DNA from: Guyparkeria hydrothermalis
GTDB taxonomy: Bacteria > Pseudomonadota > Gammaproteobacteria > Halothiobacillales > Halothiobacillaceae
Assembly: GCF_023555385.1 (NCBI RefSeq)
Contig: NZ_JAJSED010000001.1
Coordinates: 2,214,311 to 2,278,310, forward strand
Reading direction: 5' to 3'
DNA: 64,000 bases
Shown one piece after another: positions 24,813 to 26,993 of this stretch. Numbering within the stretch: position 1 is the first letter of the stretch; each line of letters starts with the position of its first letter. The notes beneath the pieces were generated by a model. The model worked only from the letters and a program-made list of their open reading frames with translations, was not told the origin of the DNA and ran no database searches. A program made the position numbers and the translations under genes.

Positions 24813-25063
24813 CGGTGTCCCTCCGGGAACGACAGATACGGCATCGGATCGGCTTCGGCCCCCTCCGCGCACTTGCGGCAGGCAAGCGGGCTTCCCAGCA
24901 TCGAAATGCGGCCGAGGCTGTGTTCCACCCAGGGGCGATTGATCCAGGGCGGATTGTGACGCGTGTGCTGATTGTGGCCGCATTCGAGGCGCGCAAACCA
25001 GTGCCCCTCGGCGTCGCGGTGAAAGGAGCGGATGGCCCGTAACGGTGCCTCGGCCCGGACCAT
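24809..25063 (-). CDS. DUF3565 family protein
   Basis: This 84-residue protein contains the family core GHWFARLECGHNQHTRHNPPW followed by RPWV. A Cys/His pair (CGH) and a later CRKC pair suggest a small zinc-binding fold. The function is unknown. The start ATG at 25061-25063 overlaps the rimO stop (TGATG), and its own stop overlaps the moaB start, so three genes are chained by overlapping codons. The frame is open further upstream over rimO, but that extension is only the rimO shadow. Confidence 0.85.
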   Translation of the reverse strand: MVRAEAPLRAIRSFHRDAEGHWFARLECGHNQHTRHNPPWINRPWVEHSLGRISMLGSPLACRKCAEGAEADPMPYLSFPEGHR

Positions 25064-26448
25064 CAGGGGACGGGGACGCCCCACAGGTCGTGCTCGTCCG
25101 CTTCGACGATTTCCACCTCGACGAAGTCGCCCGGGGCCACGTCGGTCACCTCGGGCAGGTAGACCACACCATCGATCTCGGGGGCATCGGCCATGCTGCG
25201 CGCCACGGCGCCGGACTCGTCCACCGCGTCCACCAGCACCGGCATGCGCTGGCCGACCTTCCTTGCCAGCTTGGCCGCGCTGATGGCTGCCTGCTTTTCC
25301 ATGAAACGCGCCAGGCGCTCTTGCTTGACCTCTTCCGGCACCGGCTCGGGCAGGTCGTTGGCCGTCGCGCCCTCCACGGGCGAGTAGGCAAACGCCCCGA
25401 CGCGATCGAGCTGCGCTTCGTCGAGGAAGTCGAGCAGCTCCTGGAAGTCGTCCTCGGTCTCGCCGGGGAAGCCGACGATGAATGTCGAGCGGATCGTGAT
25501 TTCCGGACAGATTTCCCGCCACTTGGCGATTCGCTTGAGAACGTTCTCGCTCGAGGCCGGGCGCTTCATCAGCTTGAGGATGCGGTGGCTGGCGTGCTGG
25601 AACGGGATGTCGAGGTAGGGCAGCACCAGTCCCTCGGCCATCAACTCAACGGCGTCGTCGACGTGCGGGTAGGGGTAGACGTAGTGCAGTCGGATCCAGG
25701 CGTCCAGCGAACCCAGCGCGGCGGCCAGTTCACGGAAGCGGGTCTTCAGCGGCCGCCCACCCCAGAAATCGAGCTTGTAGCGGGTATCGACGCCGTAGGC
25801 GCTGGTGTCCTGCGAGACCACCAGCAGCTCGCGCACGCCGGCATTGACGAGGTTTTCCGCCTCGGTCATGACCTCGCCGATCGGCCGGCTGGCAAGATCG
25901 CCGCGCAGGCTGGGAATGATGCAGAAGCTGCAGCGATGATTGCAGCCTTCGGAAATCTTGAGGTAGGCGTAGTGGCGCGGAGTCAGCTTGACGCCAACGG
26001 CCTCGTCCAGCGTCGGCATGCCGTCCTCGCTCGCGTCCTTGGCGGTTGCCTGGCTGCCCGGCTCGGGCATGACGTCGACGAACGGGTCGAATCGCGGCGG
26101 CAGGTGCTGGTGAACGGCTTCCATCACCTCCTGATAGGCCTGCGGGCCGGTGACGGCCAGCACGCTGGGATGCGTCTCGCGCACCAGATCGCCCTCGTCG
26201 CGGCCACCCAGGCAACCGGTGACGATGACGCGCCCGTTCTCGTCCAGCGCCTCGCCGATGGTGTCGAGCGATTCCTGCACCGCCGAGTCGATAAAGCCGC
26301 AGGTGTTCACGATCACGAGCTCCGCGCCTTCGTAGCTGTCGGAGAGGGCATAGCCCTCGGCGCGCAGCTGGGTGAGGATCCGTTCGGAGTCGACCAACGC
26401 CTTGGGGCATCCGAGAGAAATAAACCCTACTTGTGGCTGCATAGACAT
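25063..26448 (-). CDS. rimO: Ribosomal protein S12 methylthiotransferase RimO (with replaced 5' end)
   Basis: This radical-SAM enzyme adds a methylthio group to Asp89 of ribosomal protein S12. The 461-residue protein is complete: N-terminal cluster cysteines Cys14, Cys50 and Cys79, radical-SAM cysteines Cys169, Cys173 and Cys176 (in CNHRCSFC), and a C-terminal TRAM domain. The first 13 codons or so are AT-richer than the rest and duplicate the residues [10 protein letters not shown] that also occur in a remnant upstream, showing that the start has been exchanged. The new ATG overlaps the stop of the remnant (TAATG) and has AGGGA 6 bases upstream. Confidence 0.96.
26399..26409 (-). repeat. Direct repeat copy 1 inside rimO (possible att core)
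   Basis: The 11-mer TGCCCCAAGGC (minus strand) encodes CPKA codons 14-17 of the present rimO. It is identical to 26482-26492 in the displaced native start, 83 bp away, while the codons before it differ. Confidence 0.8.
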
Positions 26449-26481
26449 TAGTTATCCCTAGAGCCGAGTTTATTTTCTGTG
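26410..26481 (-). mobile_element. 72-bp AT-rich insert carrying a replacement rimO start
   Basis: Between the two 11-bp repeats lie 72 bp with 30 G or C bases (42%), clearly lower than the surrounding coding DNA. The insert holds the AGGGA ribosome site, the ATG at 26448 and codons 1-13 of the current rimO, written with codons (GTA GGG TTT ATT TCT) unlike those of the native copy. I read it as the edge of a lost integrative element; no integrase gene is present. Confidence 0.6.
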
Positions 26482-26534
26482 GCCTTGGGGCAGCCCAGGC
26501 TGATGAAGCCGATGCGCGGCGGGTTGTGCGTCAT
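26448..26534 (-). pseudogene. Displaced native 5' end of rimO (28-codon remnant)
   Basis: The ATG at 26534 overlaps the stop of the DUF3579 gene (ATGA). The peptide begins [18 protein letters not shown], the standard RimO N-terminus, then runs into the insert and ends at TAA 26450-26448, which overlaps the new rimO ATG. Removing 83 bp would join this start in frame to the rest of rimO ([12 protein letters not shown]). It may still be translated and pass ribosomes to the new start by reinitiation. Confidence 0.8.
26482..26492 (-). repeat. Direct repeat copy 2 in displaced rimO start (possible att core)
   Basis: This is TGCCCCAAGGC on the minus strand, the same 11-mer as 26399-26409, here preceded by native high-GC codons (ATC AGC CTG GGC). 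Confidence 0.8.
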
Positions 26535-26869
26535 GACTTGGCGGCGTCGGGGGAGACGGGGGCGTTCTCGCCGTTGAACTCCTCGAGGTGGCCGTCGGGA
26601 TACTGGACGTGCACCGTGAGGTTGTTGCGGTCGATGAATTGCATCACCGAGTCGAACATCTGGCGATTCGCGGTCTTCAGTTCGGGCTCGATCACCAGCA
26701 TCTTCTGGCCGTCGAGCAGGACGGGGTGCAGCCGCTGCGAATAGACCAGACGATGCTGGGCAAACGTCGCATCCCAGCTCGAGATGCGATCGATCCAGTC
26801 ACTGGGGCGGAATCGGGCGCCGGCCTTGGTCACTGACTCGACGATGTAGCGTTTCGGCTGGTTGTCCAT
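26531..26869 (-). CDS. DUF3579 family protein
   Basis: A 112-residue soluble protein starting MDNQPKRYIVESVTKAGARFRPSDWIDRI, consistent with DUF3579, a family often found immediately upstream of rimO in beta- and gammaproteobacteria. The function is unknown. The ATG at 26869 is used because the upstream alternative at 26923 is a TTG and adds an unlikely tail. Its stop overlaps the original rimO start, which fixes where rimO used to begin. Confidence 0.8.
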   Translation of the reverse strand: MDNQPKRYIVESVTKAGARFRPSDWIDRISSWDATFAQHRLVYSQRLHPVLLDGQKMLVIEPELKTANRQMFDSVMQFIDRNNLTVHVQYPDGHLEEFNGENAPVSPDAAKS

Positions 26870-26993
26870 GAAGTCGTGGCTTGCTCGGCCTGCACCGAAT
26901 GTGGATGGGTCGATTAGAATCAATCGGCCATTTTACTTCACTTGGCCGCCAAACGCATCCGGCCAGCGATATCAAAACAGGAGGAAAGCCGTG

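Follow-up and report, generated by a model that had tools for sequence, protein, structure and literature searches.

The 5' end of rimO in Guyparkeria hydrothermalis probably retains the junctions of a lost serine-recombinase element

The rimO locus of Guyparkeria hydrothermalis described here lies in a stretch of 64,000 nucleotides (the window), in which rimO and the DUF3579-type gene upstream of it (26531..26869) are both encoded on the minus strand. The family name of the upstream gene is the putative label of the initial annotation, and its start, an ATG at 26869, was inferred by reading, the listed open reading frame (ORF) opening at a TTG at 26923. Its TGA stop overlaps the native rimO start, an ATG at 26534-26532. 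The frame opened by this ATG spans just 28 codons and persists as an orphan ORF (26448..26534, minus strand) ending in a TAA at 26450-26448, which in turn overlaps the ATG (26448-26446) of an intact rimO gene (25063..26448, minus strand). The latter encodes a protein of 461 residues with the Pfam domains UPF0004, Radical_SAM and TRAM_2, which matches T. maritima RimO (4jc0) with an E-value of 8.9e-80. Its Cys14 aligns with the cysteine of GCPK in the Thermotoga protein and is presumably a residue of iron-sulphur cluster binding.

The unusual layout reflects an insertion of 83 bp in the codon for the conserved cysteine of RimO. An 11-bp sequence, TGCCCCAAGGC, occurs in two exact copies 83 bp apart, which sit within a 17-nt repeat of 88% identity; the 72 bp between them have a GC content of 41.7%, set against 65.7% for the window. 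Deleting one 83-bp unit in silico joins the native start in frame to the body of rimO. The initial annotation had already pointed out the two stop-start overlaps, the repeat, the low GC content (given as 42%) and the effect of the deletion, all of which are borne out by the ORFs and the sequence. Both junctions fall inside the GGNTGYCC stretch of rimO, with the native N-terminus on one side and the native body on the other.

The insertion is absent from related genomes. Our genus sample comprised 11 genomes including that of the window (G000), and a full rimO was retrieved from eight of the ten others. In all eight the site is single and unbroken, and the stop of the upstream gene overlaps the native rimO start; in the remaining two, the rimO search had no match (G005, 64% complete) or returned a paralogue-level match only (G008, 34%). 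These empty sites rule out that the insertion is an ancestral feature. In the family, the N-terminal motif of rimO was matched in 24 of 27 genomes, twice only in the window's own; a search at the level of the order returned the same 27 genomes. Given the single site in congeners and the single match in other family genomes, the insertion is derived and so far seen only in G000. The sequence beside it aligns with the congeners over about 160 bp to the left and about 40 bp seen to the right. A search for the recombinase gave no match at rimO or elsewhere in G000, nor in its genus or the 27 family genomes, an empty answer that is by itself no proof of absence, and no intact element at rimO was found in the genus or family genomes searched, so that intact counterparts have to come from other groups. 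A blastn search with a 146-bp region returned 12 plasmid and three phage records; the matches were all short, and several fell in rimO genes.

The exchange of a gene's 5' end by a mobile element is a familiar process. SXT/R391 ICEs, for instance, use a tyrosine integrase and an attachment site in prfC, and give this housekeeping gene a new 5' end. The initial annotation had drawn on this example; while the new gene start is indeed alike, the site here is rimO, and its intact counterparts carry large serine recombinases rather than tyrosine machinery. Elements at rimO, of which the initial annotation knew none, have moreover been described. Burkholderia phage JC1 is reported (2022) to integrate in the 5' end of rimO by means of a serine recombinase, with an overlap of 18 bp, RimO staying in frame thanks to an ATG of the phage (PMC9144972). 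The attP site of JC1 carries the motif GTATAG in its P arm and TATAC in its P' arm. JC1 thus resembles the window in the target gene, in the use of its 5' end and in an element-supplied in-frame ATG, the serine recombinase being that of JC1; it differs in being a complete 61-kb phage, whereas the window has neither body nor integrase but two junctions only, and a P arm lacking GTRTAG.

Further cases are on record. Prophage 2 of Variovorax J1 has a serine integrase and is listed at RimO (PMC9658991), Acidithiobacillus ferrooxidans ATCC 53993 has a genomic island in rimO, for which the table row names no integrase (PMC10322971), and an island of Polaromonas CJ2 at rimO is cited in PMC4482086. 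The Variovorax prophage and the Acidithiobacillus island share the rimO site with the window but are, by these accounts, large elements, likened here by their insertion gene. The dusA-associated islands and prophages described in the same paper likewise put element sequence in place of the start of a gene for RNA modification and preserve its frame (PMC4482086), but they concern another gene and another integrase family, and appear there as islands or prophages, not as bare scars. Taken together, these cases mean that the mechanism was already known. A bare junction scar at rimO is not described in the literature searched, a body of text outside which most subscription journals lie.

Intact elements at rimO were found in other groups. 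A scan of IMG/VR with the pattern I-S(TCN)-L-G-C-P-K-A yielded 24 loci, in 20 of which a provirus end is joined in frame to rimO; the other four (L046, L050, L057 and L063) turned out on reading to be chance matches. A variant with AGY serine codons matched two IMG/VR loci, L070, a rimO with no sign of an element in the stretch read, and L071, which resembles the opposite junction. By reading, a divergent serine-recombinase ORF lies near rimO in all 20 fused proviruses (partial only in L053 and L062), and two of these recombinases, when tested, had the combination of Resolvase (PF00239) and Recombinase (PF07508) domains that makes up large serine recombinases. Solved structures gave no match to the recombinase alignment. 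In a phage collection, 18 records match the recombinase, the closest being JC1 (OM283127; integrase 62.6% identical to the family query), LPPA36 (60.8%), Bcep176 (59.3%) and Rb1 (53.1%). A rimO-like motif adjoins the recombinase in Rb1 (by pattern) and JC1 (by reading), and is absent from the stretches examined of LPPA36 and Bcep176.

A genome scan with an alignment of eight recombinases returned 102 relatives, of which 80 were kept, from Pseudomonas, Xanthomonas, Burkholderia, Polaromonas, Acidithiobacillus, Comamonas and others. In many Gamma- and Betaproteobacteria, and in proviruses, a large serine recombinase is found no more than 3.5 kb from rimO. RimO homology was detected in 60 of the 80 loci; the other 20, without such a match within the stored flank (L097, L102, L104, L107, L108, L113, L115, L119, L125, L127, L129, L133, L135, L140, L146, L147, L148, L150, L151 and L155), may in some cases use other target genes. 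The recombinase beside rimO in Acidithiobacillus ferrianus (L153), matched only over residues 7-290, belongs to the family as well, and this locus may be related to the reported island of A. ferrooxidans. The core motif is present in 56 of the 60 RimO-adjacent loci, and L080, L109, L112 and L114 have an altered core beside a recognisable P arm. All 56 attR cores are preceded by an in-frame start, and 55 of them have GTRTAG in the P arm. The exception is L116, whose arm is native-type and whose in-frame start is that of its native 5' end; its core is preceded by 67 bp that recur without change in the outer-junction copy, L190. At this locus of Burkholderia stagnalis (G416, contig C10; L116, L190 and L191; positions 112130 and 121810), the rimO next to the recombinase has a native-type 5' end that recurs 9.7 kb away before a P' arm, with full identity over those first 67 bp; it looks as though duplication or recombination had given rimO its native start back.

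For the second junction, 44 of the 60 loci were submitted to a motif search in 43 genomes, 42 of which matched. A single contig carries both the attL and the attR motif in 17 genomes, at distances of 32.4 to 121.7 kb with a median of 38.1 kb. G416 has a further such pair, of 9.7 kb, which was kept separate because a native-type 5' end is present at both of its ends. The attL set comprised 34 stretches and, with L191 recognised as the rimO side of G416 and L157 added, holds 34 rows with a P' arm. In these, the native GFVSLGCP is followed by element DNA with TANAC at a constant distance. JC1, Rb1 and L071 bring the number of P' arms to 37; TANAC occupies offset 19-23 in 31 of them. Since the motifs of the P and P' arms are equidistant on both sides from the TG of the Cys codon, this dinucleotide forms the axis and is the probable point of crossover. 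We infer from these alignments that the recombinases cross over at this TG; the elements supply a new in-frame N-terminus.

The window can be read on the same axis. Its attL junction, on the minus strand like all features that follow, would consist of the native B half (26493..26517, 25 bp shown), identified by alignment with the empty sites of the eight congeners, the probable crossover dinucleotide TG, bases 1-2 of the Cys codon (26491..26492), and an element P' arm of 25 bp (26466..26490), which has TAAAC at offset 19-23, in agreement with the TANAC of the family. This arm scores 14.4 bits in exact register, compared with a leave-one-out median of 16.3 in the family, in which 14 of 37 arms score lower; with L190 left out, it scores 14.5. 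Among 127,934 window positions on both strands, the score is reached at one, the site itself, and shuffling the arm's own 21 bp reaches it in three of 20,000 cases. In 19 further registers between -6 and +13 the score is always negative, and the native B' half of the window scores -25.7 bits on the same model. The initial annotation had taken TGCCCCAAGGC as the boundary of the insertion: the repeat is exact, as stated, but it would start at the presumed crossover TG and extends further because the element P' arm resembles native rimO there. It is the P' arm that carries the argument for a probable origin from the JC1-type family, and it is also the main guide to the family of the integrase, which has itself disappeared. 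Two further candidate features were dropped: a dyad symmetry of the window arms, with only five of 16 positions matching at offsets 10-25, and an attP dyad formed by GTTTATTT and AAATAAAC, which lies off the TG axis.

The attR junction would accordingly be made up of a presumed element P arm of 25 bp (26410..26434), which encodes part of the replacement N-terminus of RimO, the probable crossover TG in the Cys14 codon of the new RimO (26408..26409), and the native B' half (26383..26407, 25 bp shown), the latter again recognised by congener alignment. The P arm is far less telling. With L116 removed from the model, its score is 7.7 bits, and the 53 unique element arms all score higher, from 13.0 to 31.5 with a median of 25.4. 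A model that counted L116 as an element arm gives it 10.8 bits, inside the range of the family (8.2 to 31.4), but the minimum of that range is L116 itself, a native-type arm, and the score therefore no longer supports the case. The value of 7.7 bits is reached at one of 127,934 window positions and in four of 20,000 shuffles. Three of 33 native arms score at least as high (up to 11.4), and several native arms of the congeners do too (0.2 to 13.4 bits). Over 32 bp, the median identity of the window arm is 16/32 to element arms and 18/32 to native arms. It reads AAGTAGG and lacks the longer motif GTRTAG, but has TAGG at offset 17-20, like 55 of 57 element arms, three of 41 native arms and none of the eight congeners. 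Its GC content is 40%, versus 64-76% in congener native arms, and it has a 14-bp in-register run, GTAGGGTTTATTTC, in common with L090, L093 and L149, while native arms reach at most 11. Taken by itself, the arm fits a divergent family member, but is no proof of one.

We consider it very probable that the 83 bp are the remains of a lost provirus or island with a JC1-type large serine recombinase, which integrated at rimO and whose body was deleted while its start was retained. Such an element would have entered rimO of an ancestor at the TG of the Cys codon, separating the native first 14 codons from the gene and placing its own ATG and 13 codons before the rest of rimO. Its body would later have been deleted, leaving behind attL (native B plus P'), 31 bp between the 25-bp arms (26435..26465) and attR (P plus native B'). 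These 31 bp comprise AGGGA (26459-26455), the likely ribosome site of the new start, the TAATG overlap and the new ATG. RimO is now most likely started from this element-derived ATG, and would be translated by read-through from the DUF3579 gene, possibly with coupling at the TAATG overlap; selection may have kept the start. Excision by a serine integrase restores the empty site exactly, and the body was therefore most likely lost by deletion. The initial annotation had likewise proposed a lost element that used rimO as its attachment site and whose replacement start outlasted its body, a view that the empty congener sites and the P' arm support. Against it stand the missing GTRTAG in the P arm, the lack of an intact element in the genus and family genomes searched, and the lack of an intermediate for G000. 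As no serine recombinase was found in G000 or the family genomes, we classify the 83-bp unit as a relic and not as a member of the JC1-type elements.

Partly decayed elements were found at rimO in other genomes. In G338 (L192 and L198, contig C75), an element-type rimO start lies beside a broken recombinase, with residues 11-146 and 281-376 and an internal stop; most of the body is gone, given that about 2.1 kb separate rimO from a stretch shared with G117, compared with about 1.8 kb in G117 itself. G444 (L201, C11:36500-43000) is a probable further relic: next to an element-type rimO start, the stretch examined shows a recombinase match over residues 1-98 only (72% identity). In G165, a recombinase fragment accompanies rimO at the end of one contig, and a putative attL without TANAC lies on another. 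All three fit a decay by deletion in which the start is retained. Among 369 genomes of the class, 193 have a motif match, with two matches only in G000 and G165; a stricter motif matches 170, with two matches only in G000 and G338 (the second on another contig). In the family of G392 (117 of 138 genomes matching), two matches occur in G392, G399 and G530, and in that of G416 (127 of 140) in G416, G588 and G605. A second bare junction pair was not found in these 369, 138 and 140 genomes, in a search that changed motifs would escape. G605 has a motif pair 1,354 bp apart; there (L200, G605:C24:22800-26600, positions ~530 and 1884), an attP-like site, with P-like CGCATAGG and P'-like AATATACC flanking a TG, lies about 1.35 kb upstream of a native-looking rimO start, and no recombinase was matched in the 3.8 kb examined.

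Other origins of the insertion are conceivable. A tandem duplication of rimO's own 5' end, followed by drift of one copy, would account for the 10-residue stretch encoded by both copies, for their 11 identical bp, and for a second arm that is overall no closer to element arms than to native arms. This arm, however, has the low GC content and the TAGG noted above, and the DNA after the first core cannot be aligned with congener rimO, but fits an element P' arm at exact register. Because of this P' arm, we regard a duplication as highly unlikely. An import of the 5' end by recombination with rimO DNA from a lysogen of another species, and its subsequent shortening, is the least probable origin of all; the attR regions of other hosts do have a similar layout, but the flanks of the insertion align with the congeners on both sides, over the ~160 and ~40 bp given above.

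The short distance of 31 bp between the 25-bp arms raises the question of whether a large body was ever present. Instead, a minimal non-autonomous element, an 83-bp circle consisting of attP and a start, could have been integrated in trans. The survival of the P' arm, the loss of which would presumably cost the cell nothing, is noteworthy in this regard. Yet the 17 same-contig attL/attR pairs measured all span at least 32.4 kb, the search yielded no second pair of motifs spaced by 200 bp or less (none in the 117 matching of 138 and the 127 matching of 140 genomes searched), the broken-integrase relics suggest decay by deletion, and a circle of 83 bp would be physically unlikely, all of which makes such an element quite improbable. 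It is equally improbable that the 83-bp unit still is a recombinable junction pair acting as a portable start-codon cassette. If it were, an integrase arriving from elsewhere, together with its excision factor, could excise the unit and rimO would regain its native start; the dead prophage would then have made the 5' end of a housekeeping gene switchable.

While elements at rimO had been described before, what is new here is an endpoint at which both junctions are kept, the body is gone and the start is retained; it is the apparent end stage of a process that is usually observed at its start. Integrases that target the most conserved codon of a gene supply it with a spare start, which the host may go on using after the element has decayed. 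With whole elements, broken-integrase relics and bare junctions at one and the same site, the decay of gene-targeting prophages becomes readable as a series, and the arms collected here from a single serine-integrase family, 37 P' and 57 P, provide a basis for seeking attachment sites and other scars.
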